Assembly (NCBI GenBank): GCA_003224085.1
Contig: QHYK01000092.1
Coordinates: 1-37,746, forward strand
Length of the DNA stretch: 37,746 bases
Source of the DNA: Acidobacteriota bacterium
GTDB taxonomy: Bacteria > Acidobacteriota > Terriglobia > Acidiferrales > UBA7541
Reading direction: 5' to 3'
The notes below the pieces were generated by a model, which saw only the letters and a list, made by a program, of their open reading frames with translations, ran no database searches and was not told the origin of the DNA. Of this stretch, positions 9,763-37,746 are shown piece by piece (position 1 is the first letter of the stretch; the number at the start of each line of letters is the position of its first letter). The position numbers and the translations under genes were made by a program.

Positions 9763-11165
9763 TATTCTTCCTCTCCCATCGGCTCGCGCCCCGGCCTGCG
9801 AATTCCTAGCTCGCGCAACTTTTCCTGCAGGCTCTGCCGGTGCAGCCCGATCGTCGCCGCCGTGCGCGAAACATTCCAGCGATGTTCCGCCAACTGCTTG
9901 ATCAGATACGCCACTTCAAACTTCCGCTTGGCATCGCGAAAATCCCGCTCGCCCATTCCATTATCCAGTTGCTCGCCGGCATGTTTCACAGAAATCGCAT
10001 CGCCATGCACGATTTCTGCCGGCAGATCTTCCGGGCCGATTTCCTCCTTGCGGCAGAGCACGACGCTGCGCTCCAACGCATTCTTCAATTCGCGGACGTT
10101 CCCCGGCCAATCGTATTTCTCGACGGCAGCCAGCGCTTCGCGGCTCAGCCGCGCCGTTTTTCCCAGTCTCGCGCCATGCATTGGCAGAAAGACTTCCGTC
10201 AGCAGCGCGATGTCACCCTTATGCGCGCGCAGCGGAGGCAACTCTACGGTCACCACACGCAGGCGGTAAAACAAGTCCTCGCGAAATTTCCCATTGCGAA
10301 TCTCCGCGGCCAGGTTGCGGTGGGTCGCGCTGATCACCCGCACATCTACGGGAATCGAATGCGTTCCGCCCAGACGCTCAATCGTGCGATTTTCCAGCAC
10401 GCGCAGCACTTTGGCTTGCGTTAGCGGATTCATATCTCCAATCTCATCCAGAAAAATTGTTCCGCCCGATGCCAGCTCAAATTTTCCCTTCTTCTGCTGC
10501 GCCGCGCCCGTGAACGCGCCGCGCTCGTAGCCAAACAATTCGGACTCGATAAGCGTCTCCGGCAGCGCCGCGCAATTCACCGCGACGTACGGTTTTCCAG
10601 CACGCGGCGACCGCGCGTGAATTTCCTGCGCCAGCAAATCCTTCCCCGTTCCGCTTTCGCCGAGAATTAATACCGTTGAGTCGGTTGGGGCTACGCGGTC
10701 AGCCATCTCGAACGCACGGCGCATTTCCGCGGAGCGCCCAATCATTTGCCCGAACTGGCCCTCGGTGGCCATCCGGCGGCGCAACGCGTTATTTTCTTTT
10801 TCCAGCATCGCCAGCTTCAGGAGGTTTGCAACGCGTTGCCGAAGCTCGTCCAATTCGAAGCCCTTTACCAGATAATCCGCCGCTCCGAGTTGCAGCGCCT
10901 GCACCGCCGTTTTCGCGGTGTCCAGCGCGGAGACCATCAGCACAGGCACTTCGCTCCCCTGCTCGCGCAGCCATTTCAAGAATGACATTCCATCCTGGCC
11001 CGGCAGAACCACGTCCAGCAGCACCAAGTCCGGCTGCTCGCGCGGTAACGCCTCGCGCGCCACCTCGACCGAATCGGCTTCCGCAATGCGATACCTTGCT
11101 TCCAGGGCCCGCCGCAACCCGTATCGCGCCGCCGGCTCATCATCCACAATCAGTATCGTCTTCAT
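9762..11165 (-). CDS. NtrC-family sigma-54-dependent response regulator
   Basis: A 467-residue bacterial enhancer-binding protein. The receiver domain (1-120) has the acidic pair Asp8-Asp9, phospho-acceptor Asp51 and Lys101. The AAA+ domain has Walker A GESGTGKD (169-176), an intact sigma-54-contacting GAFTGA loop (216-221) and Walker B GTIFLDE (235-241). The C-terminus carries a Fis-type helix-turn-helix (about WNVSRTAATIGLHRQSLQEKL). It lies 24 bases downstream of its probable cognate kinase and overlaps mobA by one base. It should activate sigma-54 promoters when phosphorylated; one candidate lies upstream of its own operon (13265-13280). Confidence 0.94.
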   Translation of the reverse strand: MKTILIVDDEPAARYGLRRALEARYRIAEADSVEVAREALPREQPDLVLLDVVLPGQDGMSFLKWLREQGSEVPVLMVSALDTAKTAVQALQLGAADYLVKGFELDELRQRVANLLKLAMLEKENNALRRRMATEGQFGQMIGRSAEMRRAFEMADRVAPTDSTVLILGESGTGKDLLAQEIHARSPRAGKPYVAVNCAALPETLIESELFGYERGAFTGAAQQKKGKFELASGGTIFLDEIGDMNPLTQAKVLRVLENRTIERLGGTHSIPVDVRVISATHRNLAAEIRNGKFREDLFYRLRVVTVELPPLRAHKGDIALLTEVFLPMHGARLGKTARLSREALAAVEKYDWPGNVRELKNALERSVVLCRKEEIGPEDLPAEIVHGDAISVKHAGEQLDNGMGERDFRDAKRKFEVAYLIKQLAEHRWNVSRTAATIGLHRQSLQEKLRELGIRRPGREPMGEEE

Positions 11166-11189
11166 GGCTTCCTTTGCCTCATTGCTTCC

Positions 11190-13190
11190 CTACTTTTTTA
11201 CCTCTTCCAGGGGCAATGTCACCTTGAACCTCGTTCCGTGCCCATCCTTCACCGGACTTTCCCAATCCACCTTTCCTCCAAATTCCGCCGCGCGGCGCGC
11301 AACAATCGCTAAGCCCAGCCCCGTGCCCTGCGATTTTGTGGTGAAGAACGGCCGCAGGATCTTTTCGCCTAGCGCTGGTGGAATGCCCTGCCCGTCATCT
11401 TCCACGAGCAAGCACAAATTTTCCTGCTCCTGCGCGGCGGTCACGCTCACGTGTCCGCCGCGCGGTGTGGCTTCGAGCGCATTCACCACGAGGTTCGAAA
11501 CAATGTCATTGAGCGCCTCCGCGGTTATGGCCACAGGGGCGCCGGCATTGCATGTTTCTGCTTTCAACTTCAGCCCGCGGCGTTCCGCCTCACGGGACAA
11601 AACACTAACCACCTCTTCCGTCACCGCCGCGGCACCGCAACTCGCCACCTTATCTCCCGTGCGCACGGCCGGCCGGCTGAATTGGAGCAATTGATTCAGC
11701 TTGTTCGAGAGCCTGCCAATTTCTTCGAGGATCATTTTCGTTTCGCCGCGAATGGAATCCGGCAACTCGGGATTTTCCAGTTGCACCTGCAGAATTGTCT
11801 TCATCGAGCCCAGAGGGTTCTTCAAGTTGTGTGAAATGCTCGCCGCCATTTGGCCTACGAGCGCCAGCCGTTCGCGCTCGGCCAACTCCCGCTCGAGCCG
11901 CACTTTTTCCTCGATGAGCCGGCACAAGTCCAGCGCTCCGGGCAATTGCTCGCACAAAAACTCCAGCGCCGCCCTCGTATCTCCCGAAATGATCGCGCCG
12001 TGAGATTCCACGTGAAGGAAGCCCTCGTTTTTTCCGTTGCGCAGAATGGGGAATTCGCGTGGATCGAAAGCAAGCGCGGCCCGGGGCTCCTCCGATTTTG
12101 TGTCAGCTAAGCGCGTTTTCTTTGCGTCGGGCAAATCCAGCCATACCTCTCGAAGCTCCAATTGTTCTCTGGTCCTGCGTTCGATGAAACTCACGAGTTC
12201 CCACAGGTTGCCTTGGCGCGCTTCCTGCTGGATCTCAGCCATCAGTTTTTGCACGCGGTCCATTTCCAGTTGGGCCGTCTCGCGGAGACTTCGCCCTAGC
12301 ATCCGCTGCAAAGGCTCGATGAAAATCACCAGCACGAATAAGAGGATGGAAGCGGAAGCTTCCGGTGGGAGCAGCGGCTCCAGCCAAATGCCGACGCGGC
12401 GGACCAAGCTGAGGTAAAGCAGCGCCAGGAAAGTGGCGGAGACCGCATAGAGCAGATTTTTTTGGCGGCCGATCTGGAGGAAGTTTCTCCGGTATACGAG
12501 GTCGATTAGCACAGTGAATGGAACGATCGGCAGCAGTGAAAAAGCAGTCTCGAGCATCGCGATAGCCTGCTTGGGAATGGGGTATGGCGCTATATGCAGC
12601 ACTCCCGTGGCCAGGAAAGCCAAGGCAAAGAAGAACAGCAGCGCCCAGTGAAAATAGCTCTGCGGTTTGTCTGGAACCGTTGTAGCAAAGCGCCTCTCCC
12701 AGCCTGCACACCAAGCCAACGAAATGGACAAGACGATGGCGAAGCCAGTGCCAAGGGAATTGCCTGGCCCAATGAAGTCGAAGGTCCCCTCTTGCAGAAG
12801 TAACGGGATGCGGTGGAGGGCAAGATGCAAACCGGCAAGATAGAAAAGCGCCAGGATTGCGCGCTTCCATGCCTTGACCTGGAGCAAGCCGCGCGTTTGC
12901 GCATACTCCAGATGAAGATGCAGCAGCAGCGCAGGAGACAAGCAGAGCCCTACAGAAATAACGACAATCGCGAATGCCTGCAAACCTGCGGGTGGTTTCG
13001 GGTAATAGATTTGCGAGTTCAGGGCAAGCAGCGAGCCACCATAAAATAGAAAGAAGGCGAGGCACAGAAAAAAAAGAACGCGCTCGAAATTGCGCTGCCG
13101 CCGGTAACCGAGGATCACCACCATCCAGAACAGTTCGATGAGCGTGCCCAACGTGTAACCAATGAGCCGGAGATAGAGCAAAGGACCCAC
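11190..13190 (-). CDS. membrane-bound sensor histidine kinase
   Basis: A 666-residue kinase. The first ~295 residues contain about eight or nine hydrophobic segments with little periplasmic sequence between them, suggesting that it senses a membrane or lipid-soluble signal. A cytoplasmic linker, possibly GAF-like (about 310-430), follows. The dimerisation/phospho-acceptor domain has the H-box SISHNLKNPLG (His454). The ATPase domain shows the N-box LNDIVSNLVVNALEAT, G1 VEDDGQGIP and FFTTKSQGTGLGLAI. Translation starts at GTG 13190 with a GGAG site. The partner regulator follows after 24 bases. It is divergent from groESL across a 300-base regulatory region. Confidence 0.92.
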   Translation of the reverse strand: MGPLLYLRLIGYTLGTLIELFWMVVILGYRRQRNFERVLFFLCLAFFLFYGGSLLALNSQIYYPKPPAGLQAFAIVVISVGLCLSPALLLHLHLEYAQTRGLLQVKAWKRAILALFYLAGLHLALHRIPLLLQEGTFDFIGPGNSLGTGFAIVLSISLAWCAGWERRFATTVPDKPQSYFHWALLFFFALAFLATGVLHIAPYPIPKQAIAMLETAFSLLPIVPFTVLIDLVYRRNFLQIGRQKNLLYAVSATFLALLYLSLVRRVGIWLEPLLPPEASASILLFVLVIFIEPLQRMLGRSLRETAQLEMDRVQKLMAEIQQEARQGNLWELVSFIERRTREQLELREVWLDLPDAKKTRLADTKSEEPRAALAFDPREFPILRNGKNEGFLHVESHGAIISGDTRAALEFLCEQLPGALDLCRLIEEKVRLERELAERERLALVGQMAASISHNLKNPLGSMKTILQVQLENPELPDSIRGETKMILEEIGRLSNKLNQLLQFSRPAVRTGDKVASCGAAAVTEEVVSVLSREAERRGLKLKAETCNAGAPVAITAEALNDIVSNLVVNALEATPRGGHVSVTAAQEQENLCLLVEDDGQGIPPALGEKILRPFFTTKSQGTGLGLAIVARRAAEFGGKVDWESPVKDGHGTRFKVTLPLEEVKK

Positions 13191-16718: not shown

Positions 16719-16747
16719 TTTCAAAATGCTAAGCCTGGGCGGAAGCC

Positions 16748-24027: not shown

Positions 24028-25362
24028 CTAAATGGGCAGGCGAAGCCTGGCCTCGCACCCTCGCGCATCGGTGCGGTTCTTCAAGGTGAGTTCGCCACCA
24101 TGAGCTTCGGCAATCTGGCGGCTGAGGACAAGCCCAATGCCGGAGCCCCCCGGCTTGGTGGTGAAGAAGGGCACAAACAGATTGGCGGTGTTGGGAAGGC
24201 CAGGACCGTCATCGACGACCCACAACTCCACTTGCCCGCGCTTTCGCGTCCAGCCAATCTCCACTCCTCCCTTCGTTTCCAAGGCGGCATCGGCGGCATT
24301 GCGAACCAGGTTTATCAATAACTGTTCTAGCTGGTCAGGGTCGGCTGAGATGACCGTGTCGGGCCCCTTACCCAGATTGATCTTCACCCGCGTCTCAAGT
24401 TTTACCGTTCTTCCCACCCAATCCGAGACCCTCACGGGCAGTAATTTTGGCTGCGGCAGCCGCGCCAGTTGGGCATAGGCCGTCATGAAGCGACCCAGGG
24501 CTTCGGTACGCGAACGAATGATGCTTAGTCCCTGGCGGAGATCATCCATAATCCCGGCGAACGAATCGCCGTGAGCATTGGAGGGCTTGGTCGCGGCGAC
24601 CAGGCTGCTTTCGAGGCTCTGCGCGACGGACTGAATCGGCGCGAGCGAGTTATTCAGTTCGTGACCAAGAACGCGAATGAGGCGTTGCCACGCTTTGCGC
24701 TCTTCGTCGCGAAGCGTTCGGCTCAAATCACTCAACACAATCAGATGATGGGGCAGGCCTTCCTCGCGAAATGAGCCGCGTCGAAGCCCCCAGCGCCCGG
24801 AACCACCGGGAAAAGCCAACTCCATCGTACGGACAGGCTCGCCCTCCAGGCATGCGCCGAGCCCAAGCTCTTCCGCGGTGAATCCGAGGAGGCGCTCGAC
24901 AGGATGGCCCAACAGGCGCACGCCGGCGCGATTGACTAGCCGGAGCCTCTTGTCCTGGTTGAAGGTGAAGATGGCGAGATCGATTTCCTCCATCACGGTT
25001 CGCAACAGAGCCAGGGCTTCCAAGGCGCCCAGACGCTGCTGGCGCAAGGTTTCGCTGAGTGCGTTCACTTCCACCATGACTTCGCCCATGGCGTCGCCGC
25101 TGCCGGCACCGCGGGCGCGCATGGAAAAATCTTCCTCGCGCAGCGCGGCCAGGAGATTCGAAAGCGTCTGGAGCGAGAAAACTATGCGGTTTTTTACAGA
25201 AAAGGCGAAACCCAGCCAGAAGACCCCGATGAAGAACGTAATCGTCCAGGCAGCGCCGGAGGAGAAACTTCCATTCCACAACAGAATCAGGGCGACCAGC
25301 GTTCCCGGAAGGCCTGCGCCCAGCGCAAGGAGATGGATGCGGCGCTCGTAAGTCAGTCGCAT
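24028..25362 (-). CDS. NtrY-like membrane sensor histidine kinase
   Basis: A 444-residue kinase. Two transmembrane helices (about 8-28 and 38-55) with a short loop are followed by a HAMP-like linker and a PAS domain (about 118-215). The H-box RVLGHELNNSLAPI has His234. The ATPase has the N-box LEQLLINLVRNAADAALE, G1 VVDDGPGLP, and FFTTKPGGSGIGLVLS. ATG 25362 overlaps the regulator's TAA as TAATG. The frame extends upstream to 25635, but those residues overlap the regulator gene and are not protein-like. With no large periplasmic domain, it probably reads an intramembrane or cytoplasmic signal and phosphorylates the regulator encoded just upstream. Confidence 0.92.
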   Translation of the reverse strand: MRLTYERRIHLLALGAGLPGTLVALILLWNGSFSSGAAWTITFFIGVFWLGFAFSVKNRIVFSLQTLSNLLAALREEDFSMRARGAGSGDAMGEVMVEVNALSETLRQQRLGALEALALLRTVMEEIDLAIFTFNQDKRLRLVNRAGVRLLGHPVERLLGFTAEELGLGACLEGEPVRTMELAFPGGSGRWGLRRGSFREEGLPHHLIVLSDLSRTLRDEERKAWQRLIRVLGHELNNSLAPIQSVAQSLESSLVAATKPSNAHGDSFAGIMDDLRQGLSIIRSRTEALGRFMTAYAQLARLPQPKLLPVRVSDWVGRTVKLETRVKINLGKGPDTVISADPDQLEQLLINLVRNAADAALETKGGVEIGWTRKRGQVELWVVDDGPGLPNTANLFVPFFTTKPGGSGIGLVLSRQIAEAHGGELTLKNRTDARGCEARLRLPI

Positions 25363-26738
25363 TATTCCAGATGGTGTTTTTGGAGCCGGCGGTACATGGC
25401 GCTGCGGCTCAATCCGAGGGCTTTGGCCGCCTGGCTGACATTTCCCTCGTGACGCGAAAGAGTGCGTTGAATCAAGTAACGCTCGACTTCGTCCAGGCTC
25501 ATCTCTTCGAGTTTTGCGGCGCCGCCGGAGGCGGGGGCACGCAATCCGAGATCTTGCGCGCGCACCGATGGGCCAGGCGAAAGGAGTACGCCCCTTTCGA
25601 CGGCATGGTCCAATTCGCGTACATTGCCGGGCCAAGGATGCTCATGCAAGGCTTTGAGCGCCGCGGGATCGAAAGAAGAAATGTTCTTGCGGTAGCGCTG
25701 GGCGTAGCCGTGAAGGAAATGGAGCGCCAGCAGATCGATGTCCTCCCGCCGGTCGCGTAGCGGAGGAAGATGGATCTCAATGGTATTCAAGCGAAACAGA
25801 AGATCCTGGCGAAAGCGCCCCGCAGCCGCTTCCGCGGTGACGTCCGCATTGGTCGCGGCGAGTACCCTCACGTTGACGCGGCGCGTGGTGGAGGAGCCAA
25901 CGCGTTCCAGGTCTCCGGTTTCCAAAACGCGCAAAAGTTTTGCCTGCAAGTTCAACGGGACGTTGGCAATTTCGTCCAGGAACAACGTGCTGCCGTCGGC
26001 TAATTCGAATCGCCCGACGCGATCGGAACGCGCATCGGTAAATGCGCCTTTCACGTGCCCGAACAGTTCGCTCTCAAAGACGCCCTCGGACAGACCGCCA
26101 GCATTGACCGTCACCATAGGCTTGCTTGCGCGCCCCGACAGAGCATGAAGCGTGCGCGCCACGACTTCTTTGCCCGTGCCGTGTTCTCCGGTGATTAAAA
26201 CATTGGCGTCGGAAGGTCCAATCTGCGCAATCAGTTCCATGACCGGAGCCATTGCCGGGGAATTAGCCAAAAAAGCGGGCCGCGACTCCGCCCGCAAGAG
26301 GCGGTTTTCAGCCTCCAGGCGCGACGCACGGCGCAAAGCCTGCCGCAAGTCAATTTGCGTTCGCAGAATGGAGAGCAACCGGTTATTTTCCCAGGGCTTG
26401 GCAATGAAATCGCGCGCACCGCGGCGCATGGCCTCGACCGCCAATTCGATGCTGCTCCAGGCCGTCATGACCACTACGGGCACGGTACTGTCGATCACCT
26501 GGATGCGCGTGAGCAAGTCGAGGCCTTCCTGCCCTGAAGTGGTGTCTCGCGCGTAATTGAGGTCCATGAGGACAGCGTCAAATTCGCGCGCCTCGATGGC
26601 GTTTATGGCTTCGCTCGGAGAAGCCACGCCTTGCGTTTCATAGCCCTGGCCCTTGAGCAGCAAACGAAGCGAATCGCGGATGTCCGCTTGGTCGTCTGCC
26701 AAAAGCACCCGATAAGATTGCCCGGTAGCGGTCTTCAT
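25362..26738 (-). CDS. NtrC-like response regulator with variant GAFTDA loop
   Basis: A 458-residue regulator. The receiver has Asp15-Asp16, phospho-acceptor Asp59 and Lys114. The AAA+ domain has Walker A GEHGTGKE (184-191) and Walker B TLFLDE (251-256). The loop that normally contacts sigma-54, GAFTGA, reads GAFTDA (231-236). A Fis-type helix-turn-helix ends the protein (GNVSQAAKALGLSRSAMYRRL). The Gly-to-Asp change in the loop raises the question of whether it uses sigma-54 in the usual way. It overlaps its kinase by one base and starts 185 bases downstream of the four-permease operon on the same strand, making that operon its probable target or partner. Confidence 0.92.
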   Translation of the reverse strand: MKTATGQSYRVLLADDQADIRDSLRLLLKGQGYETQGVASPSEAINAIEAREFDAVLMDLNYARDTTSGQEGLDLLTRIQVIDSTVPVVVMTAWSSIELAVEAMRRGARDFIAKPWENNRLLSILRTQIDLRQALRRASRLEAENRLLRAESRPAFLANSPAMAPVMELIAQIGPSDANVLITGEHGTGKEVVARTLHALSGRASKPMVTVNAGGLSEGVFESELFGHVKGAFTDARSDRVGRFELADGSTLFLDEIANVPLNLQAKLLRVLETGDLERVGSSTTRRVNVRVLAATNADVTAEAAAGRFRQDLLFRLNTIEIHLPPLRDRREDIDLLALHFLHGYAQRYRKNISSFDPAALKALHEHPWPGNVRELDHAVERGVLLSPGPSVRAQDLGLRAPASGGAAKLEEMSLDEVERYLIQRTLSRHEGNVSQAAKALGLSRSAMYRRLQKHHLE

Positions 26739-26923: not shown

Positions 26924-29362
26924 TCACTCGTAACGTAAAGCGACGAGCGGATCCACGCGCGTGGCCCGCAACGCGGGAATACTGCAAGCAATCAGCGCCA
27001 CCAGGGCCAACGCCGCGGCACCTCCTGCCAGTGATATGGGATCGTAGGGCCGCACAGCAAAAAGCAAACTACCAAGAACCCACATCAAAGCAAGCGAAAG
27101 CACAAGTCCCGCCCCAAGCCCCGCCAGCAAGAGCGACATGCCTTGCCGCACTACGAGCACCAGCACATCGCTGCGAGAGGCGCCCAGAGCCATGCGCAAA
27201 CCGATTTCCTGTTGCTGCTGCGTCACCATATAAGCTGTGACGCCGTAAAGGCCCAACGCCGCGAGCAACATCGCACCGCCCGCAAAGACGCCGAGCAGTG
27301 TCAGAGTGAGGCGGCGACGCGCCAGGGAATCGGCCATCACCTGTTCCATGGTGAGCACGTGATCCACAGGCTGCTGGGCGTCGAGGCCAAGCACAACTCT
27401 TTGCACGGCGGGAGCAAGAGTCATGGGGTCGCCGGCCGTGCGCACGGCAAGGCCCATAAAATTCGTGGAAGGAGTTTGCGCCTCAGGCCAGTAAAGCTGA
27501 ACGCGAGAGCGCGCTTCGAGGGTGCGATAGCGTACATGACGGACGACTCCGATGATGGTCATCCAGGGTAGTTTTGATTTCCGGCCGCCCACTTTGATGC
27601 GTTTTCCAACAGCGTCTTCATTAGGCCAGTACGCGCGTGCCATAGTTTCGTCAATGACAGCCACTGGCGGAGCGGTGTCCGTGTCGCGGTCTTCGATGTA
27701 ACGACCGGCAATGAGCGAAATCCCCATGGCTTGAAAAAAACCGGGCGTCACGATGCGCTGGTCGACCTCGGGGGAGGCATCGGGGCCAGAGACCACGCGA
27801 GAGTCAACGGTGGCGGTCCCGGAACTCTCACCGCTTAACGGAAGATTTGAGATGGCCCCGGCTGCTTGCACGCCAGGAAGCTGTGCCACGCGAGTGACGA
27901 GTTCGCGGTAAAAAGCTCGAGCTTGCTCGGGCTTTGTGTATTTCGCGGTAGGAAGGGCGATTTGCATGGTCAGCACGCCCTCCGGGCGGAAACCGGGGTC
28001 AACCTCGAGCAGCTTCAAAAAGCTGCGAAGAAACAGACCGGACCCCGCCAGGAGGAGAACAGCTAGAGCCGCTTCCGCAGCAACAAAGATGCGGCGCAAC
28101 TTCTGCGAACCACGGCCCTCCCTGCCCGTGCGGCCGCCCTCCTTCAAGATTTCGTAGTGAACGCCGCGGCTTGCATCAAGAGCAGGGGCAAGGCCAAACG
28201 CAATTCCCGTGCAGACGGCGACGCTGAAGGTGAAGAGCAACGCGCCGTGATCGATTCCTGTGGAGACGACTCGAGGAAGGGCGTTAACGCTGAGCGTCAC
28301 GATAACCCGCAGAAGAAGCGGCGTAAGAAGTAGGCCTAGGAAGCCGCCGAACAGAGACAAGAGCAGGCTCTCACTCAACAGTTGGCGGATAATTCGCCGC
28401 GTTCCCGCACCCAAGGCGACGCGAACGGCAATTTCCTTTCGCCTGGCAGTGCTGCGGGTTAGAAGCAGGCCCGCAACATTGGCGCATACCAGCAACAAAA
28501 CGAAACCGACCGCGCCCATCAGCACCCACAGGGACGCTTTCACATCGCCGACAGTTTCTTCCAGCAAAGGATGGAGGAACATTGCGTAATGGAAGCGTTC
28601 GTAAGGGTAGTCGCGGTTACGCTCAACGATGGACTTGGCGACTTCTTGTATATCTTCGCGGGCCTGGGCAAGAGTGACACCAGGTTTGAGCCCCGCCAGA
28701 ACCTCCAAACCGTGGTTGCCTCGATTATCCGGAGCAAAATCCTTGGGAGTGAACACTTGAGGAGTCCACAGTTCGGCCGACAAAGGATAATCAAAGCCCC
28801 CAGGCATTACGCCAATGACCTGGCAGGATCGGCCGTCGAGTACGAACTCCTTGCCGACGATCTGAGGATCGGAGCCGAAAGCCCGCTGCCAAAGGCTGTA
28901 CCCGAGAATCAGAACACGGTCGCGTCCCTCCTCTGCTTCATCGGCAGTGAAGGTACGCCCGAGCATCGGACTAACTCCCAGAATCGAGAACATGCTGGGG
29001 GAAACGACAGCGCCTTTGACGCTTTGAGGATTGCCGCTCACACCAAGATTAACGGGTCCGCCACCGAGCACGGCAACATTCGAAAAACTGCGGTTCAAGT
29101 CGCGGAGGTCGCGAAACTCCGGCGCGGAAAACCACATTTGGTCGTTAGGCAAGCCAATTCCGGTGAACCGCCCCCAGACTTTTACGAGTCCTCCAGGATT
29201 CGTATAAGGCAGTGGTTTCAGCAGAACGGTGTTGACGATGCTGAAGATGGCGCTGTTGGCTCCGATACCCAATGCAAGCGTGATCACCGTGACCAGAGTG
29301 AACCCCGGATTCCTGATCAACCCGCGAATCGCATAGCGGAGATCCTGCCATAGCGTATTCAT
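26924..29362 (-). CDS. ABC transporter permease, ADOP (duplicated FtsX/MacB) family, copy 1
   Basis: An 812-residue integral-membrane permease. It has the ADOP N-terminus (LRYAIRGLIRNPGFTLVTVI then [12 protein letters not shown]) and a MacB-like periplasmic core, then a second FtsX half. The C-terminal helices end in [11 protein letters not shown]. Two FtsX-like halves in one chain, each with helices flanking a periplasmic domain, define the family. ATG 29362 is preferred because AAAGGGAG lies nine bases upstream; an ATG at 29389 is possible. It is the last and distal gene of the permease run, 19 bases after copy 2. Function is likely mechanotransmission or export, not classical solute import; the substrate is unknown. 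Confidence 0.9.
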   Translation of the reverse strand: MNTLWQDLRYAIRGLIRNPGFTLVTVITLALGIGANSAIFSIVNTVLLKPLPYTNPGGLVKVWGRFTGIGLPNDQMWFSAPEFRDLRDLNRSFSNVAVLGGGPVNLGVSGNPQSVKGAVVSPSMFSILGVSPMLGRTFTADEAEEGRDRVLILGYSLWQRAFGSDPQIVGKEFVLDGRSCQVIGVMPGGFDYPLSAELWTPQVFTPKDFAPDNRGNHGLEVLAGLKPGVTLAQAREDIQEVAKSIVERNRDYPYERFHYAMFLHPLLEETVGDVKASLWVLMGAVGFVLLLVCANVAGLLLTRSTARRKEIAVRVALGAGTRRIIRQLLSESLLLSLFGGFLGLLLTPLLLRVIVTLSVNALPRVVSTGIDHGALLFTFSVAVCTGIAFGLAPALDASRGVHYEILKEGGRTGREGRGSQKLRRIFVAAEAALAVLLLAGSGLFLRSFLKLLEVDPGFRPEGVLTMQIALPTAKYTKPEQARAFYRELVTRVAQLPGVQAAGAISNLPLSGESSGTATVDSRVVSGPDASPEVDQRIVTPGFFQAMGISLIAGRYIEDRDTDTAPPVAVIDETMARAYWPNEDAVGKRIKVGGRKSKLPWMTIIGVVRHVRYRTLEARSRVQLYWPEAQTPSTNFMGLAVRTAGDPMTLAPAVQRVVLGLDAQQPVDHVLTMEQVMADSLARRRLTLTLLGVFAGGAMLLAALGLYGVTAYMVTQQQQEIGLRMALGASRSDVLVLVVRQGMSLLLAGLGAGLVLSLALMWVLGSLLFAVRPYDPISLAGGAAALALVALIACSIPALRATRVDPLVALRYE

Positions 29363-29381
29363 TCCCGAGGCTCCCTTTACC

Positions 29382-31793
29382 TCACTCATAGCGCAAAGCA
29401 GCCAGCGGATCCACGCGAGCCGCGCGGCGGGCCGGGACGTAGCTTGCGAAAACTGCCACGGCCACCGAAATTGCCGCCGAAACCAGATAAGACAAAACAT
29501 TGGTTGGTTTGATTTGATACAGAAGGCTACTCAGGAACCGGGAAAGCCCCAGCGCCACCGCGGTACCAACTACCACGCCAACCAGCCCAATGGCCAATCC
29601 TTGCCCCACAATAAGTCGCAGGATCTGCTTCTGCTCGGCACCTAGCGTCATGCGGATGCCGATTTCGTGCGTGCGCTGCGCGACAAACAAACTCAAGACT
29701 CCATAGATACCGATCGCCGCCAGTACGAGGGCTATGCTTGCAAAAGCACTCAGAAGCACGGAATCGAAGCTCTGTCCAGCGACCGAGCCGGCGACAACAT
29801 CCTTCATGGACCGAACCTCGGGTATCCGCTGGTCGGGGTCAAACTCCTTAATTGCCTGGCGCAAACTGGGCACGATATCCACACGGCCAACGGTGCGCAC
29901 CACCCACGCCGTCGAACCATTGAGCATGTCACCTCTCTGGGATGCGGGGATATAGACCGTGGGCGGAGCGGGGCGCATAAGCAACCTGCCCTTTACATCT
30001 CCAACTACGCCAACCACTTCGCGTGGCATGGGATTCGGGAACAGATCCCGGCCCCTGAACTTCCCAATTACGACCCGCTGGCCGATCGGATTTCCATTTC
30101 CCCACCAGCGGCGCGCGAGGGCTTCGTTGACCAAAGCCACCAGAGCACTGGTCGCCTGGTCGGTTTGCAAAATCCGGCGGCCTTGCAAGATCGGAATGCG
30201 CATGGTCTCAAAATAGTCCTCGCTGATGGCGCGGATTTCGGTCCCGCCGATGCTGTGCTCTTCATCATGCAGTCCGAAGGCTTGCGCTGGGAGATTCGCT
30301 TGCTGTGTAAGCGGTGCGACCGTTACCATCGCAGCGGAACGCACGCCGGGCAGACCTTGGATCTTCCGCAGGAATTGCTCGTGCAAATTCCATGCCTGCT
30401 CGGAAGTGAGATTCCTGGCCGGAGCAGGAGTCGTCATGGTCACGACATTGTCGGGATCAAACCCAAGCTTCTCTTGATATAGGCGGTAGAGGCTCTCTCC
30501 CAGCAAGGCTGCGCCGACCAGCAAGGCAAGCGAAAGCGCAATCTCGCAAGTCGCAAGAACGTTGCGCACGCGGCCGGGCGACGCTTTCCTAAGGGCCTGT
30601 CGTTCTTCATTTCCCACTGCGGTGATTGGATTGTTTCGCGCGGCCTGCCAATAGGAGACCAGGCCAAAAACCACGGTGGTCACCAGAAGGGTCCCCAATG
30701 TAAACAGCAAAACACTCGCATCAATACGAATCGGACCAGCCCAGGAAAAATTGAACGGCATGGAAGAAACCAAAGCTGCCAACACCCACTGAGCCGCTAG
30801 TACTCCCCCCAGTGCGCCGGCCAGCGCGAGCAAGAAGCTCTCCGCCATAAACTGCCGCAATAGTTGTCCTGCTCCTGCGCCAATGGCCACGCGAATGAAA
30901 ATCTCTCTGCCTCGAAAGGCACCGCGAGACAGCAGAAGGTTTGCGATGTTCAAGCATGCGAGGAGAAGAAGGAGTCCAGTCGCGCCAAAGAGGAGGACCA
31001 AGCTAACACGGAATTCACCGGCGAGCCAGCGCTGGTAATTGCCGATGAACACTCCGCCGTTTTTGGACGGAAATTGCTGGAAGAGAATGTTCAACTCTAT
31101 CTGAGCCTGTGCCATGGTGACTCCAGGTTTCAAGCGCGCAATCATGCGCGTGTTCCTCCCCTGATCGCCTATCGAGTCACTCCATTGCAAGGCGATGTAG
31201 GCATCGGCGGGCTGCTCGACAAAAGTGAAACTACGGGGCATCACCCCGACGATCGTGCAGAGGCGGTCATCCAATTCAATCTGCGTTCCGATCACATGGG
31301 GGTTGGCACCTAGAACATTTCTCCACGCGGCGTCGCTAAGCACGACTGCCGGGGGCGCGCCACGTTTCATGTCTTCGCTTTGGAGAGTTCGGCCAAGACC
31401 CGGGGCCGCTCCCAGCACGCGAAAGAAATCCTCGGTCACTCGTTGCGAGGTCAACCAACTCACCTGATCCTGCTGCTTCAGCTCAAGCAGAGAGCCCGGT
31501 TGGAAAGCTGCGATGGAATCAAACGCGGAGGCAGGGTGTTCCTGGAAGAAGGTAAATTGAGGCCCCGTGACGTAACCTTCCGGCTCTCCGTTCTTCAGGG
31601 ATCCACCCAGTTGCACTATTCGGTCGGGCTGCGGGTACGGCAAAGGCCTCAGGAGCACGGCGTGCAGCACACTGAAGATGGCGGTATTTGCCCCAATGCC
31701 TAATGCCAGGGTCAGGATGGCGACAGTTGCAAAGCTGGGACTTTTCAGCAGCGAGCGCATTGCATAGCGAAGGTCTTGGAAAACGGTTTTCAT
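29382..31793 (-). CDS. ABC transporter permease, ADOP family, copy 2
   Basis: An 803-residue ADOP permease beginning MKTVFQDLRYAMRSLLKS, then [20 protein letters not shown], and ending RVDPLAALRYE. The central segment GATGLLLLLACLNIANLLLS marks the end of the first FtsX half. Start ATG 31793 lies 6 bases after the stop of copy 3, so translation is probably coupled; its own ribosome-binding site is weak. Sequence blocks are shared with copies 1, 3 and 4 but interior periplasmic parts diverge, consistent with ancient duplication and specialisation. Confidence 0.9.
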   Translation of the reverse strand: MKTVFQDLRYAMRSLLKSPSFATVAILTLALGIGANTAIFSVLHAVLLRPLPYPQPDRIVQLGGSLKNGEPEGYVTGPQFTFFQEHPASAFDSIAAFQPGSLLELKQQDQVSWLTSQRVTEDFFRVLGAAPGLGRTLQSEDMKRGAPPAVVLSDAAWRNVLGANPHVIGTQIELDDRLCTIVGVMPRSFTFVEQPADAYIALQWSDSIGDQGRNTRMIARLKPGVTMAQAQIELNILFQQFPSKNGGVFIGNYQRWLAGEFRVSLVLLFGATGLLLLLACLNIANLLLSRGAFRGREIFIRVAIGAGAGQLLRQFMAESFLLALAGALGGVLAAQWVLAALVSSMPFNFSWAGPIRIDASVLLFTLGTLLVTTVVFGLVSYWQAARNNPITAVGNEERQALRKASPGRVRNVLATCEIALSLALLVGAALLGESLYRLYQEKLGFDPDNVVTMTTPAPARNLTSEQAWNLHEQFLRKIQGLPGVRSAAMVTVAPLTQQANLPAQAFGLHDEEHSIGGTEIRAISEDYFETMRIPILQGRRILQTDQATSALVALVNEALARRWWGNGNPIGQRVVIGKFRGRDLFPNPMPREVVGVVGDVKGRLLMRPAPPTVYIPASQRGDMLNGSTAWVVRTVGRVDIVPSLRQAIKEFDPDQRIPEVRSMKDVVAGSVAGQSFDSVLLSAFASIALVLAAIGIYGVLSLFVAQRTHEIGIRMTLGAEQKQILRLIVGQGLAIGLVGVVVGTAVALGLSRFLSSLLYQIKPTNVLSYLVSAAISVAVAVFASYVPARRAARVDPLAALRYE

Positions 31794-31799
31794 CTTCGC

Positions 31800-34256
31800 T
31801 CATTCATAACGCAGGGCTACGAGTGGATCCACTCGCGTGGCACGCCATGCCGGAACCCAGGCCGCGAACAACACCACGCAAGTCAACAACAGCGCCGTAC
31901 CCGCAAACGTCAAAGGATCGGTCGCGCTGACTCTATAAAGCAAGCTCGTCAGAACACGTGTTAGAGCAAAAGCTGCGATGAGGCCGCCGGCGACTCCAAG
32001 GAGCGCAAGCCGCAGGCTTTCACCGAGCACCATCCGCAAAACATCTCCGCGCGACGCACCCAGCGCGATGCGCACGCCGATTTCCTGCGTGCGCTGCGTA
32101 ACGTTAAACCGAATCAAGCCAAACAAACCTACCGCCGCCAAAGCCATCGCCATGGCCGCAAACACGCTAAGCAGCGTCACGGCAGAGCGCCGCGGTCCCA
32201 TCGACAGAGCGATGCGCTGGTCCATGGTCTTCCAATCGGAAACAGGTTGTGTGGGATCCACCTCGTGCACCGCGGCACGCATTGCGCCCGCCAGAGTTGC
32301 CGGATTGCCGCTCGTGCGGGCAATCAGGAACACCGCGGGCGAATTTTCCTGGTACAAAGGAAAATAGTAGACACCCTTTGCGGAACCTTCCGTGCCGGTC
32401 GCGGATGCTTCTTCTCCGACAACCTGGTAGTGGCGGACATGCGCGACGATGCCGACAACGGTCTTCCAGGGAACATTGTTTCCATTGCGAATGCGTTGGC
32501 CCAGCGCATCCCGATGAGGCCAATACTCATGGGCAAGATTCTCGTCGATGATGGCCACTGGCTGGCTGCCTAAACGGTCTTGATCAGTGAAATAGCGGCC
32601 ACGGAGCAGCCGAATACCCATAGTCTCGAAATAGCGCGGGCTGACGCCCCGAATGTCACCATGCGGGCCCGGATCCCCTGGCGGGGCCACGCGGCCTTCA
32701 ATGCGGAACGATGCGGAACCGCCGAAGCCGCTAAACGGCAGCGGCACTCCGGCGGCGGCGGATACTATGCCCGGCGAATTCGATAGCCGTTCGAGCGCAC
32801 TGCTAAGAAATGCAATCTGCTTGTCCGGCGTATCGTACTGGCGCTCCGGCAAGGCCATGGCGGCAGTCATCAAACCGTGAGGACGAAAACCAACATCGAC
32901 GTCTTTGAGTTTCGCCAGGCTCTTCAGGAACACGCCCGCACCGGCCAGCAACACCAGCGCCAAAGAGAGCTCCGCCACCACGAGTCCGCTGCGAAAACCA
33001 TGCCGGGCGGCAGTTCCCTCCCCCGTGCCGCGGCCTTGCTTCAAGTTTTGCTGGGGATCGATGAATGCCATTTGCCAGGCTGGGGCAGCGCCGAAAATGA
33101 TCGCCGAGGCGCCGGCAGTCAGCGCAGTAAAAAGAAGCACATACAGATCCACATGAATGTTCATGCCGGTGGAAAGATTCTCCGGAGCGAGCCACAACAA
33201 AGCATGGACTGCTTGCACGGAAACCACCAAGCCCAGGGCCATGCCGAGGAAAGCCAACACCATACTTTCCGTGAGCATCTGGCGCGCCAGCCGCCACGGC
33301 GAACCGCCGAGCGCAGTGCGGACAGCAAATTCCTTGGCTCGCGCCGAAGCACGGGCCAGCAAAAGCCCCGCGACATTCGAACACGCGATGAGCAGAACCA
33401 GACTTACAGCGCCCGAGAGGATTAACAGCGGCGTTCGAACGTCGCCATAAACAAATTCCGTGAAAGGAACCGCAAACAAGCTCCAACCGGAGGCCTTCGG
33501 GTATCCTTGCGCGCGAGGATCATCGCTGACTTGCTGAGAAGTCATTTTGAGGAAAGCCGCAGCGTTCGAAAATTTCGCTCCCGCTTGCAGGCGCGCGACG
33601 GCAAGAAAGTTTTCGTTGAAAATGTTGTTGAGCTGAAAGGCATTCTGCGGGAGCCCCAGGGGAGCCCACAAATCGGTTGGGCTCGGCCACTGGAATTCCG
33701 GCCCCATCACACCGATGATTTTGTAGGGCTGCTGGTTGAGCTGGACGGAGCGGCCAACCATTTCGGAGTCGCCACCAAAAATCGATTTCCACGTGTTGTA
33801 CGCCAGAACCACTTCACGGTTGGCGTCGGGCTGATCTTCTTCAGGAGTGAAGACGCGGCCCAACAGGGGCTTGGCCTCAAAAACGTCGAACCACTGCCAG
33901 GAGACCTGCGCGCCGCGCAGCCGCAACGGCCAAGCGCCCGTGGCGTAATTAAAATCGCTTTCCGTCTCAATGGCCGCCGCAGCGAACGTCTGCTTATTGT
34001 CCCGCACAAACGAAAAGTCCGGCGCGGAAATCACAATGCTTTTGAGGTTCAACTTTTCGTAGCGCGCGCGAACGGCAAGCAACCGCCCGGGGTGTGGAAT
34101 ACCATAAGGATGCAGTAGCAGCCCGTTCACCACGCTGAAGATAGCCGTGTTCGCGCCGATGCCAAGGGCAAGCGTAAGCACTGCAACAGTCGTGAATCCA
34201 GGGTTTTTCAGAAGTATGCGCAAGGCGTGGCGAAGATCCTGAAGGATGGTTCTCAT
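31800..34256 (-). CDS. ABC transporter permease, ADOP family, copy 3
   Basis: An 818-residue ADOP permease beginning [18 protein letters not shown], then [20 protein letters not shown], and ending [11 protein letters not shown]. The first half ends near [23 protein letters not shown] 34256 has TGAGGC upstream. The spacer to copy 4 is 102 bases, the longest within the run, and contains sequence shared with the ATPase upstream region plus two GC-rich hairpins. It could therefore hold an internal promoter or processing site that resets expression of the distal three permeases. Confidence 0.9.
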
Positions 34257-34262
34257 TTTTGC

Positions 34263-34292
34263 CTCATTCCTCAGAAAATAGCCTTAAAATCG
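34263..34292 (-). promoter_or_regulatory. sequence modules shared with the ATPase leader
   Basis: On the plus strand a 17-base word CTCATTCCTCAGAAAAT (34263-34279) and CCTTAAAATCG (34282-34292) also occur at 37555-37571 and 37541-37551, in the opposite order. Both lie directly upstream of minus-strand genes of the same operon (copy 3 and the ATPase). Their role is unknown. Confidence 0.6.
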
Positions 34293-34303
34293 TTTACTTT
34301 CAG

Positions 34304-34320
34304 TGGCCGCGTTGCGGCCA
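34304..34320. other. perfect hairpin in the copy 3-copy 4 spacer
   Basis: TGGCCGC and GCGGCCA pair around the 3-base loop GTT, followed on the plus strand by TTTT. The operon is transcribed on the minus strand, where no T-run follows, so it is not a good terminator in that direction. It may act as an mRNA stability or processing structure. Confidence 0.55.
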
Positions 34321-34358
34321 TTTTCATGGTTCGCTTGTGACGCCGCAGGCGGCATGAC

Positions 34359-36779
34359 CTATTCATAGTGCAGCGCGATCAAGGGGTCCACTCTCGTCGC
34401 GCGACGCGCCGGCGACCACGAAGCAAAAAGCCCCAGCAAGGCAATCGCGCACCAAACGCTGAACATCACGAGGGGATCGCGCGGCTGAGATTCGTACACG
34501 ATGCTGGTTATTACCCGGCCGGCCGCTAAAGCAAGAACAAAGCCGACCAGCGAGCCGAAAAAGAGGAGCACCGCCGTCTTGCCTAGGATGACACGAAGAA
34601 TTTGGATGGGCCGTGCCCCGATGGCCATGCGGATGCCTATCTCGTGCGTGCGCCTGGAAACAGCATAAGCCACCAGGCCGTGGATGCCTGTTGCCGCAAG
34701 CATGATGGCAAGCAGCCCGAAGGCACTCAGCGCGACGGCTGCGGCACGCGTTGGGAGAAACGCGAAACCCAGCATCTGCTCGAGTCCGCCGGCGCCATAG
34801 AGCGGCATCTCGGGATCAAGCTTGGCCATCGCGCTGCGAACCTCGCTGACCATTTGTGCGGCCGGCAGAGAAGACTTCACCTCAAGCGTGGTCGTGGAGT
34901 TGTAACGCTGGAGGATCGGCCAAAAAACCACGGGCTGCTGCGATTCCGTGAGGCTCTCATACTTGCCGTCTTCGGCGATGCCCACAACCTCCACCAGGCT
35001 GCCGGAGTAGGACGGAAAGCGCTTGCCGACGGCGTTCTCGGTGTGAAACGCACGTTTAGCCAAAGCAAGGTTGATGATGGCGACCGGGGGAGATTTGGAA
35101 TCGTCATGCCAAGTAAACTCGCGGCCGGCGAGCAGCTTGATTCCCAGCGCAGCGAAAAATTCCGGGGAAACCTGATAATAGACCACGCCGATGCGGTCGG
35201 AAGGCCGCAGGTCCGTTTTATCCGCCGGGTACAGGGACGTGCGGGATTGGTCTATGCTGAGCGGGACGGAGTTGGAGTATGCCGCGGACTCGACGCCGGG
35301 CAGTTTCTTAATGGCTTCCAATGCTTGCCGCTGGAAGGCGCGGCCACGTTCTTCGGAATATCCAGCGAGGTTCAACTCGAATGCTGCGGTGGAAACGTGC
35401 TGCGGTTCGAAACCGAGGTTCAACTTAAAGGCTTGCTGGAGACCGCGCAAGGAGAGAAAGGAAGCGGAGACAAGAACAAAGCAGAGCGCCACTTGAATGA
35501 CGACCAGCACGTCGCGAAAAGCTAGGCGGCTGCGGCCCCAGGTGGTGGAGAGTCCGCGCAGCGTGGCATTCGGGTCGGTTCCAGAGGCGTGCCAGGCAGG
35601 AGCGGAGCCGAACAACCCGGCGGCGACTATCGAGCCCGCCAAAGCAAACAAAAAAACACGCCAATCTACCGTGACGTTCCATTGCACCGGGAAGTCCATA
35701 GGCGCACGCCAGCGGCTCAGGGCTGAGGATAGGAATGACGCCAGCAGGTAGCCGGCGCCCCCGCCTGCCAGGGAAAGCACCAGGGTTTCCGTCAAGACTT
35801 GGCGCACTACGCGCCCGCGACCAGCGCCGATGGCAAGTCGGACGGCCAGTTCGCGCTGCCGGTCGGCAGCCCGCGCCGTAAACATGCTGGCCAGGTTAGT
35901 ACAAGCCGCCAGCAGGACCAGAGAGGCCAGCACTAGCACACCGAGCCAGAAAGTCCTCGCGGGGCCGCCAATGAGATCACCGATTAAGCCGGGCTTAGTC
36001 AGTTTGAAGTGCAGGCCATCGTTTTCGCTCGGAAATTGGCGAGCCAATTCGACTGCGACAGTGTTTAGGTTTACTTCTGCCTGCGCCGGAGAGACGTTTG
36101 GCTTTAGGCGGCCTAGTAGGAAAGTATTCGACGTGCTTCGCTCGTCCAGCCAGGCCTGACTTTCGATTCGCGGCTCCATCATCATGGGCACCCAGACTTC
36201 GGGCCAATAGAAAAGCTCTGTCCCATGAAAGTCCGGCGGGGCCACGCCAAAGACCGTATACGGCAGGCGGTTGATCGGAATGGTTTTGCCGACGATGGCG
36301 GGATCGCCCCCAAATCGCGCTTGCCACGCGCCGTAGCTCAGCACTGCATAAGGGCTGTCTCCGGGATGCACGTCATCATTTTGATGGAAGAAGCGGCCCA
36401 ATGCGGGCTTGACGCCGAGGACATCGAAATAATTGCCGGTGGCAAGATAGCCCCAAATGCGCTCCGCGCCGCGATCGGTCTCTAGCTCCATGGGAGCCAT
36501 GCGGTATCCGACCAGTCCGGCAAACGTTTGATTGCGGTCGCGGAGGTCTCTGTAGTTCGGGAAGGATTGGCTCGGGCCGTAGCGCGCGTTTTCAAGGAAG
36601 GCTAACTCGCTCGGCCGCTCGACAGGTAACGGACGGAGGATGAGGGCATTCACAACGCTAAAGACCGCGACGTTCGCGCCAATGCCGAGGGCAAGCGTCA
36701 GGACCGCCACCGCAGTGAAGCCGGGGCTCCTCATCAGCATGCGCAGAGCGTAGCGGAAATTCCGAAGAATTGTGGTCAT
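34359..36779 (-). CDS. ABC transporter permease, ADOP family, copy 4 (ATPase-proximal)
   Basis: An 806-residue ADOP permease beginning MTTILRNFRYALRMLMRS, then [20 protein letters not shown], and ending RVDPLIALHYE, where His replaces the Arg of the other three. It has the same two-half layout, with LGVLVLASLVLLAACTNLAS closing the first half. ATG 36779 has a clear GGAGG site. It is the first permease after the ATPase (37 bases) and so the most likely primary partner of that ATPase. Confidence 0.9.
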   Translation of the reverse strand: MTTILRNFRYALRMLMRSPGFTAVAVLTLALGIGANVAVFSVVNALILRPLPVERPSELAFLENARYGPSQSFPNYRDLRDRNQTFAGLVGYRMAPMELETDRGAERIWGYLATGNYFDVLGVKPALGRFFHQNDDVHPGDSPYAVLSYGAWQARFGGDPAIVGKTIPINRLPYTVFGVAPPDFHGTELFYWPEVWVPMMMEPRIESQAWLDERSTSNTFLLGRLKPNVSPAQAEVNLNTVAVELARQFPSENDGLHFKLTKPGLIGDLIGGPARTFWLGVLVLASLVLLAACTNLASMFTARAADRQRELAVRLAIGAGRGRVVRQVLTETLVLSLAGGGAGYLLASFLSSALSRWRAPMDFPVQWNVTVDWRVFLFALAGSIVAAGLFGSAPAWHASGTDPNATLRGLSTTWGRSRLAFRDVLVVIQVALCFVLVSASFLSLRGLQQAFKLNLGFEPQHVSTAAFELNLAGYSEERGRAFQRQALEAIKKLPGVESAAYSNSVPLSIDQSRTSLYPADKTDLRPSDRIGVVYYQVSPEFFAALGIKLLAGREFTWHDDSKSPPVAIINLALAKRAFHTENAVGKRFPSYSGSLVEVVGIAEDGKYESLTESQQPVVFWPILQRYNSTTTLEVKSSLPAAQMVSEVRSAMAKLDPEMPLYGAGGLEQMLGFAFLPTRAAAVALSAFGLLAIMLAATGIHGLVAYAVSRRTHEIGIRMAIGARPIQILRVILGKTAVLLFFGSLVGFVLALAAGRVITSIVYESQPRDPLVMFSVWCAIALLGLFASWSPARRATRVDPLIALHYE

Positions 36780-36816
36780 GGAGTGGCCTCCAGCTAAGTT
36801 CGAAGGGCGGGATTTC

Positions 36817-37533
36817 TTAGCCGGATTGCGCCGCGCTGGCGCTGGCGTCTGCCGTCGCGGTTTCTCCCACCACCCACCCGTCCTTTAGTTGGATGATGCG
36901 ATGCCCGTAAGACGCATTCCTCTCCGAGTGTGTGACCTGAATGATCGTCGTGCCCGCATCATTCAGCCTCTTGAACAGTTGCATGATCTCATCGCCCTGC
37001 GCGGAATGGAGGTTTCCCGTGGGCTCGTCGGCAAGAATCAGTTTGGGGTTCATGATCACCGCGCGGGCTACGCCTACAAGCTGTTGCTGTCCGCCGGAAA
37101 GCTGATTGGGAAACAAATCCTTCTTGCCTACGATGTTGAAGCGATCCAGGGCATCGCAAACGCGGCTAACGCGCTCCTTGTGCGGCACATTTTTGTAAGA
37201 AAGCGGCACCTCGAGATTCTCAAAAACAGTGAGATTGTCGATGAGGTGATAGCTTTGAAAGACAAACCCGGTGTTGGCTTTGTGAAGTTCATTGCGTTTT
37301 TTGACGTTTAGCCTGTGGACGGGCTCTCCCATGAAATGATATTCGCCCGTCCATGCGCCATCCAACATTCCAATGATGCTGAGCAGCGTGGATTTTCCGG
37401 CGCCCGAAGGGCCCATAATGGTGACAAACTCGCCGGGCCGAATGTCGAGATTGACGCGGCGAAGTAGGAAGAATTTGTTCGGACCGGCCTCCACGGATTT
37501 TTCTAGATTTCGCAACTGGATTAGAGGTTCCAA
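36817..37533 (-). CDS. MacB/LolD-type ABC transporter ATP-binding protein
   Basis: A 238-residue ATPase with Walker A GPSGAGKST (41-49), Q-loop FVFQSY (Gln93), signature LSGGQ (145-149), Walker B LILADEPT (165-172) and H-loop VTHSE (His202). The D-loop reads GNLHS, with His176 where most MacB/LolD proteins have Asp. The start is TTG 37533, spaced five bases from an AAGGAG site; no ATG or GTG start fits as well. It leads an operon with four ADOP permeases. A single ATPase would have to serve all four, unless others lie outside the window. The short tail ADASASAAQSG is low-complexity. Confidence 0.92.
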   Translation of the reverse strand: MEPLIQLRNLEKSVEAGPNKFFLLRRVNLDIRPGEFVTIMGPSGAGKSTLLSIIGMLDGAWTGEYHFMGEPVHRLNVKKRNELHKANTGFVFQSYHLIDNLTVFENLEVPLSYKNVPHKERVSRVCDALDRFNIVGKKDLFPNQLSGGQQQLVGVARAVIMNPKLILADEPTGNLHSAQGDEIMQLFKRLNDAGTTIIQVTHSERNASYGHRIIQLKDGWVVGETATADASASAAQSG

Positions 37534-37560
37534 GATATCTCCTTAAAATCGCTTCTCATT

Positions 37561-37614
37561 CCTCAGAAAATCGCTTCTAGGCGACTTCCTCAGAAAATCG
37601 CTTCTAGGCGACTT
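37561..37614. repeat. perfect 27-bp tandem duplication
   Basis: A 27-base unit starting CCTCAGAAAATCGCTTCTAG and ending GCGACTT is present twice with no spacer (37561-37587 and 37588-37614), and a partial AAAATCGCTTCT occurs just before (37545-37556). Each unit contains TCGC and GCGA arms around TTCTAG. The second copy includes the transposase stop codon and its last few codons. It lies in the leader of the ABC ATPase. Confidence 0.9.
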
Positions 37615-37744
37615 GCGCTAAAGGCTCCAAGGTCACTTTGAAGCCCAGACCTTCAAGGCGTTTGGTTAAGCGCCGGCGCAGCCCCTCGGGGTTCAGGCGA
37701 TCGAAGTAGTCGGGTCCAAGGTCTCGGTAGCAGACCTTGTCTCG
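37604..37744 (-). CDS. C-terminal fragment of a transposase, probably IS110 family (cut by window edge)
   Basis: An open minus-strand frame enters from the right edge and ends at TAG (37606-37604), giving 46 residues. It reads VCYRDLGPDYFDRLNPEG, then LRRRLTKRLEGLGFKVTLEP. A 'Y..LG.DYFDR..PE....R.+.+LE.LG..VTLE' C-terminus is one I associate with IS110/IS116/IS902-type transposases. The catalytic domain is outside the window. Only 70 bases separate the stop from the ATPase start, so the element end must lie within that spacer. Family assignment is from motif memory. Confidence 0.6.
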   Translation of the reverse strand, partial: RDKVCYRDLGPDYFDRLNPEGLRRRLTKRLEGLGFKVTLEPLAQVA

Positions 37745-37746
37745 CA

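Follow-up and report, generated by a model that had tools for sequence, protein, structure and literature searches.

How can a single ATPase serve four permeases, each of which already contains two halves? The question is raised by contig QHYK01000092.1 of an Acidobacteriota bacterium (assembly GCA_003224085.1), on which a preliminary description had noticed one MacB/LolD-type ATPase gene followed by four intact, full-length ADOP permeases of about 800 residues and a two-component pair. The window analysed here is this entire contig (C84, 37746 bp), within a 6.8-Mb assembly of 159 contigs. In the following, G000 is the present genome, other G numbers are relative genomes, C numbers are contigs of G000 and L numbers are loci compared. 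The window is best explained as the 3' part of a putative type VII (MacB-like) tripartite exporter operon, split in the assembly at an IS110 element. As judged from sequence, this type VII exporter operon combines an unusual ATPase pair with a varying complement of fused permeases.

The operon genes of the window all lie on the minus strand. ATPase 1 (36817..37533; identified by its open reading frame (ORF), profile matches and motif reading) is of the MacB/LolD type, with a His in its D-loop GNLHS and the signature LSGGQQQ-L. Its TTG start is located 5 nt after AAGGAG and is identical in G018, G019, G032 and G030, whose junctions were read. Then come the ADOP duplicated permeases P1 (34359..36779, 806 aa), P2 (31800..34256, 818 aa), P3 (29382..31793, 803 aa) and P4 (26924..29362, 812 aa when read from the conserved start; the ORF as listed extends to 29500). 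These score 819-959 bits against the ADOP profile TIGR03434 (cut-off 622.3), spanning profile positions 1-803 or 2-803, and each contains two MacB_PCD and two FtsX stretches. Further downstream are encoded an NtrC-type sigma-54-dependent response regulator of 458 aa (25362..26738), recognized by PF00072, PF00158, PF02954 and the GAFTDA motif, and a PAS/HATPase_c sensor histidine kinase (24028..25362; Pfam) of 444 aa from MRLTYERR (445 aa in relatives). From ATPase 1 onward the intergenic gaps measure 37, 102, 6, 19 and 185 nt, and the regulator and kinase genes overlap. The preliminary description had these genes right, including the TTG start, the His and the GAFTDA regulator with its kinase. 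It also held that the window has neither a fusion protein nor a TolC gene, and indeed BLAST found no HlyD adaptor in the window, and a Pfam scan of 21 window proteins gave neither an HlyD nor an OEP/TolC domain. The original name of the ADOP family presumably implies orphans, i.e. permeases without an adjoining ATPase gene. P1-P4 belong to this family but are not orphans, because the ATPase 1 gene adjoins P1 at a distance of 37 nt.

In same-genus relatives the locus has the order HlyD-type adaptor, ADOPs, ATPase 2, ADOPs, ATPase 1, ADOPs, regulator and kinase. The missing first part is found in G000 at the extreme end of contig C35, which carries the adaptor, one ADOP, ATPase 2 and one further ADOP. 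The last 3 kb of C35 align to G018 (79%) as far as position 16724 and the window resumes at 16708 (83%); the 15 nt absent between the two contigs relative to G018 are the last ADOP codons. C35 is free of insertion sequence (IS) DNA and its link to C84 is made by synteny. Another ADOP gene beyond the adaptor on C35, bearing the NF038403 permease prefix, has the opposite orientation and was left out of the operon. The adaptor of C35 contains PF13437 and PF16576, and HlyD domains were also detected in the G032 adaptor. A search for the fusion protein beyond position 37746, as the preliminary description had proposed, thus ends at C35, and the co-encoded periplasmic adaptor is the one expected of a tripartite exporter, its operon link in G000 being again syntenic. 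The picture of one ATPase for four permeases arose because the window stops at a contig edge, and it has to be abandoned: ATPase 2, 43% identical to ATPase 1, belongs to the locus in relatives and is present at the matching contig end here. Further ATPase genes nearby were precisely what the preliminary description had named as fatal to it.

The contig edge itself is the tail of an IS110-family element (37555..37746, minus strand) comprising the end of the transposase gene and two 27-nt repeats. The tail begins about 21-24 bases from the upstream end of the ATPase 1 gene, and nothing upstream of ATPase 1 can be read in the window because the contig terminates in it. The final 192 bases match C21 (192 nt, 100%), C67 (189 nt, 100%), C158 (189 nt, 99%) and C136 (104 nt, 100%), and the family assignment comes from transposase domains detected on the C136 copy. 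A 23-nt repeat of the IS end has eight matches on four contigs, confined to IS copies. A plasmid search with the IS repeat gave no match, and one with ATPase 1 gave eight records, all below 60% identity. IS110 copies lie near ADOP, FtsX or PadR genes at several places of the genome (C84, C136, C158 and C21; window 37555-37746, L003, L004 and L070). On C21 the tail is fused in frame with a truncated MacB-like permease ORF (L002:1501-2665), through insertion or misassembly. The P1-P2 gap holds a 20-nt, 95% match to the IS end (34263-34282), next to P1, the permease without orthologues in the operons examined.

The two ATPases are consistently unlike. In the genome set, composed of the present genome and 60 relatives, the D-loop GNLHS and the signature LSGGQQQ-L are found in 34/34 ATPase 1 sequences, while ATPase 2 has GNLDS, with the canonical Asp, and LSGGQQQ-R in 31/31 (matches of at least 60% identity). 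Walker A, the Walker B Glu and the H-loop were read in every ATPase 1 and 2, and the Q-loop in all except G050. At 24 positions, 34 ATPase 1 sequences all share one residue and 30 ATPase 2 sequences another. A wider scan of genome contigs for ATPase 1 used peptide patterns that excluded the D-loop; ATPase profiles were built from sequences shorter than 280 aa. Among the best 80 of 524 confirmed loci (one of which, L129, is probably from the same genome as G014), the D-loop residue is His in 71, three of which were recognized by eye in variant motifs, Asn in 7, Gln in 2 (L170 and L177) and Asp in none, and the signature residue is Leu in 76. These 80 loci carry titles of Acidobacteria, Gemmatimonadetes, Verrucomicrobia, Bacteroidetes, Deltaproteobacteria, Krumholzibacteriia, Aminicenantes, Zixibacteria, Ignavibacteria and Kapaibacterium. 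Operons were also seen in two culturable carriers, Edaphobacter lichenicola M8UP30 (L168) and Granulicella sp. L60 (L171). The nearest solved relatives among the matches listed (E. coli MacB, a streptococcal transporter and MJ0796) have Asp and Arg at the two positions. In the accessible text of PMC4242082, D-loops face each other at the ATPase dimer interface; therefore a mixed dimer of ATPase 1 and ATPase 2 would carry two unlike sites. We infer that such a dimer forms. At L170 a solitary ATPase 1 gene is followed by a 436-aa gene, and at L177 and L195 by an OEP gene; none of the three genomes has ATPase 2 at E <= 1e-85.

A fused permease may resolve the question of stoichiometry. An AlphaFold2 model of P2 (23 sequences, mean pLDDT 79.9, pTM 0.70) displays two periplasmic domains and, besides an N-terminal helix, eight long helices; short helices at 307-315 and 723-731 occupy the places of the coupling helices of MacB and YbbP (for YbbP, the accessible text of PMC12646458). 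The lack of coupling helices would have spoken against ATPase-driven permeases in the preliminary description; the coupling-loop sequence is present in both halves of P1-P4 and the helices are present in the P2 model. Foldseek against the PDB returned YbbP first (E 8.8e-19, with a TM-score of only 0.44, a root-mean-square deviation of 12.3 and 14% identity), then MacB, followed by LolCDE and BceAB. P2 is built like YbbP, with two permease halves per chain and, in the model, two coupling helices. YbbAP has two ATPases per fused permease (PMC12646458, seen in part). By analogy one ADOP, itself composed of two fused halves, should therefore seat two ATPase subunits, which would in principle answer the question.

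The permeases are the variable part of the locus. Relatives retain the adaptor, both ATPases, the regulator and the kinase, and the number of ADOPs per slot varies. Both ATPases share a contig in 21 of the genus operons; in these the first slot contains 0-5 ORFs (five of the counts being lower bounds) and the second and third 0-3 each, some ORFs being halves of split genes (G018, G026 and G029). The last slot of the window holds four. Each of the four nearest operons has a P2 counterpart (82-87% identity); for P3 there are two counterparts (78 and 53%) and for P4 there is one (78%), and no orthologue of P1 was found in the relatives' operons examined. The copy of P2 in G018 is split into two ORFs (L071:11049-13564), likely a decaying permease in an otherwise intact operon, and an ADOP of G026 has an internal stop. 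A recent tandem duplication of P1-P4 is rejected: with a mutual identity of only 34-42% they are old paralogues. A tree, as the preliminary description had called for, covers 144 ADOPs, with orphans from the present genome only, operon ADOPs of at least 700 aa from below the class level and the genome's own ADOPs of at least 740 aa. P1 clusters in it with two orphans of the present genome (support 0.93-0.96), and the label operon or orphan changes at least 24 times, against a mean of 46.8 on shuffling (minimum 39). The distribution is structured, with repeated exchange.

Some operons have no permease at all. From adaptor to kinase none is encoded at L131, L132, L155, L172, L189 and L171, the latter with an OEP gene. 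Ten loci lack a permease from the adaptor to ATPase 1 or directly after (L131, L132, L148, L155, L158, L171, L172, L176, L188 and L189), and each of their genomes has ADOPs that exceed the family cut-off, the ADOP matches at E <= 1e-100 numbering from 6 to at least 31. Eight genomes were picked for an ATPase 1 without a nearby ATPase 2: six have ADOPs over the cut-off, one a single weaker match and one none. The idea that alternative permeases share their ATPases, already voiced in the preliminary description, survives, backed by the variable permease numbers and the permease-less operons; that they share one single ATPase does not.

The same genome is rich in orphans. In the stretches covered, 68 ADOP ORFs of at least 740 aa were counted (72 of at least 600 aa), 43 of them bearing the NF038403 prefix and 25 lacking it. 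The operon ADOPs are prefix-less and most orphans are prefix-bearing. A PadR-like gene occurs within 6 kb of 28 of the 43 prefix-bearing ADOPs, and the C32 array accounts for 13 of the remaining 15; for the prefix-less 25 such a gene is found only near two C35 ADOPs, on the opposite strand. A same-strand MacB-type ATPase accompanies only the six operon ADOPs of the 68, another ADOP lying near it on the opposite strand (orphan flanks were inspected over about 4 kb, ending at contig ends). The two cytoplasmic coupling loops are equally conserved in orphans and operon ADOPs, the mean share of the commonest residue being 0.64-0.69 in all three groups compared versus 0.48-0.51 elsewhere, and this fits with orphans still coupling to an ATPase. 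The C32 array (G000:C32:753-38747, L122 and L123) comprises 13 full-length prefix-bearing ADOPs and one 603-aa ADOP ORF in tandem on one strand over 38 kb; neither a MacB-type ATPase nor a PadR-like gene was found within 6 kb of it.

Across the 61 genomes, presence was called at E <= 1e-80 for ATPase 1, E <= 1e-100 for ATPase 2 and E <= 1e-186 for ADOPs (TIGR03434), a count of 13 ADOPs in a genome possibly meaning at least 13. ATPase 1 occurs in 34, ATPase 2 in 39, both in 32 and ADOPs in 45. ATPase 2 is present in 39 of the 45 ADOP-bearing genomes and in none of the 16 ADOP-free ones, in counts that ignore kinship. The six ADOP-bearing genomes outside this count include G012 and G008, with partial ATPase 2 matches (91% over 77 and 81% over 181 residues; the ADOP-free 16 were not checked for partial matches), and G005 and G022, which have ATPase 1 only and whose contigs end before the expected place of ATPase 2; the others are G020 and G048. 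ATPase 1 accompanies large permease sets: it is present in 30 of the 32 genomes with at least 10 ADOPs (exceptions G012 and G052), 4 of the 13 that have fewer (one to nine) and none of the 16 ADOP-free ones. At the best 80 of the 524 wider loci, ATPase 2 lies inside the locus stretch in 43 and elsewhere in the genome for 22 of the remaining 37.

Sigma-54 control of the operon would fit with the GAFTDA regulator and with a promoter-like site. The pattern GG-N8-TTGC is found 35-41 nt upstream of 17 of 18 adaptor genes with the common start MDIQRPSNA (adaptors of at least 380 aa and at least 60% identity), the rate in random 90-nt stretches drawn from these loci being 4.1%. A first, looser pattern occurred in 5 of the 18 upstream regions (control 6.3%), and the strict sigma-54 consensus had five matches over all operon loci, none at the operon head. 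In the regions upstream of the genes, best-match scores against shuffled sequences were equal for the regulator and ATPase 2, 7.9 versus 7.6 for ATPase 1 and 8.0 versus 7.5 for the adaptor.

From gene content, gene order, conservation, motif differences, co-occurrence and the promoter-like site, all observed directly, we infer a pairing of the ATPases, their sharing among permeases, a supply of orphans in trans and export as the function. The best explanation, to which we give a probability of roughly 0.55, is that a two-ATPase engine and an adaptor serve exchangeable permeases and perhaps orphans too. An ADOP, as a fused two-half permease, would seat two ATPase subunits, and ATPase 1 would pair asymmetrically with ATPase 2 beneath a single ADOP at any one time. 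The ADOPs would be interchangeable and set the substrate, and the adaptor and an outer-membrane factor would complete the pump. The kinase and regulator may activate the operon at a -24/-12 site ahead of the adaptor gene, and the same engine may drive ATPase-less ADOPs elsewhere in the genome. The full version, a type VII exporter with a heterodimeric engine, shared through one adaptor by the revolving operon permeases and, in trans, by about 60 orphans, is put forward tentatively and with less confidence.

Several observations weigh against this explanation. No contig joins C35 to C84, the GG-N8-TTGC pattern was chosen after inspection of the adaptor upstream sequences, and all co-occurrence counts are uncorrected for kinship. 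No ATPase 2 was found for the single ADOP of G020 or for that of G048. Seven of the 39 genomes with ATPase 2 lack ATPase 1 (G034, G035, G045, G046, G052, G054 and G056); G052 among them has at least 12 ADOPs, and ATPase 2 can therefore probably work alone. Some ATPase 1 genes are solitary, and 15 of the 80 wider ATPase 1 loci lie in genomes without ATPase 2 at E <= 1e-85: by title, five are Bacteroidota-type, three Ignavibacteria or Kapaibacterium and three Acidobacteria, with one each from Deltaproteobacteria, Verrucomicrobiota, Aminicenantes and an unplaced bacterium.

The same independence of the ATPases speaks for two ordinary pumps in one operon, in which homodimers of ATPase 1 and of ATPase 2 would drive different ADOPs, only adaptor and regulation would be shared and the D-loop change would do no more than tune ATPase 1. 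Solitary ATPase 1 loci, some adjoining an OEP gene (L177 and L195), the location of the two ATPases on different contigs in G038, G049, G050 and G060, and the identical ATPase subunits of described type VII systems such as YbbA (accessible text of PMC12646458) all agree with it. We consider it the main rival, though less likely, since 32 of the 34 genomes with ATPase 1 among the 61 also hold ATPase 2 and at many loci the two ATPase genes are direct neighbours, no permease intervening. It is improbable that the extra ADOPs are sensors or decaying accessory genes hitchhiking in the operon rather than pump parts. High turnover, with P2 alone having counterparts in all four nearest operons and P1 none, the split and interrupted genes of G018 and G026 and the co-encoded sensor kinase would suit such a role, but P1-P4 are all intact with both coupling loops, and the operon adaptor, with OEP genes in some relatives, points to export. 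The view that one ATPase and four alternative permeases make up the whole ATP-driven part matches what the window displays and is contradicted by synteny to the point of being very improbable.

If the shared engine is real, one engine would serve many exchangeable pump heads. Acidobacteria and some Bacteroidota hold tens of duplicated permeases termed orphans for want of an adjoining ATPase, and ATPase 1 with ATPase 2 would be a concrete candidate engine for them. According to the accessible parts of the reports, one acidobacterial genome encodes 102 orphan duplicated permeases, of which 80 are transcribed (PMC10564751), two Dyadobacter genomes have 28 and 33 orphan copies (PMC11573002) and, among transporter genes in the biosynthetic clusters of Candidatus Angelobacter, those of MacB type are the most frequent (PMC9723581). 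The locus also suggests that the ATPases of type VII ABC systems may be paired asymmetrically. A literature search, from whose reach subscription papers mostly fell out, returned no description of a two-ATPase ADOP operon, no ATPase reported for orphan ADOPs and no heterodimeric type VII ATPase pair. Elsewhere in the window, 6798-13190 encodes on one strand a second sigma-54-type regulator with a histidine kinase, a separate ABC ATPase (8249-9112), a MobA-like transferase and an antiporter-like protein.

Known systems resemble the locus in parts. The best NCBIfam match of ATPase 1 is DarD of the darobactin exporter DarBCDE (NF038007, NF038008), at 236.7 bits against a cut-off of 375, and the permeases match DarB weakly, below its cut-off of 700. 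The orphan ADOPs of Acidobacteria belong to the same family TIGR03434; they are mostly NF038403-prefixed with no ATPase nearby, whereas the operon ADOPs are prefix-less. A heterodimeric ABC exporter would have two unlike ATPases in one complex; unlike ATPases are co-encoded here. The heterodimeric type IV exporter TAP offers a precedent for a D-loop change on one subunit: D674A of TAP1 uncouples transport from hydrolysis, although TAP is of another fold class and its D-loop change was engineered (PMC4242082, accessible text). E. coli YbbAP(-TesA) (PDB 9GE6-9GE8) shares a fused duplicated MacB-type permease, separate ATPases and two coupling helices. It differs, as far as the accessible text goes, by the 10 membrane helices of YbbP versus 8 in the P2 model, identical YbbA subunits, an esterase partner, the absence of an adaptor and one permease per operon. 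MacAB-TolC shares the adaptor, the MacB-type periplasmic domains and the ATPase family. OEP genes form part of the operon at L164 and L171 and stand next to ATPase 1 at L177 and L195; none was found in the window, the rest of the genome not having been searched. MacB is one polypeptide with a fused ATPase, acting as a homodimer, and its profile NF007826 gave at best 205.9 bits versus a cut-off of 966. The present operon, in contrast, has separate ATPases of two types, fused permease halves and many permeases.

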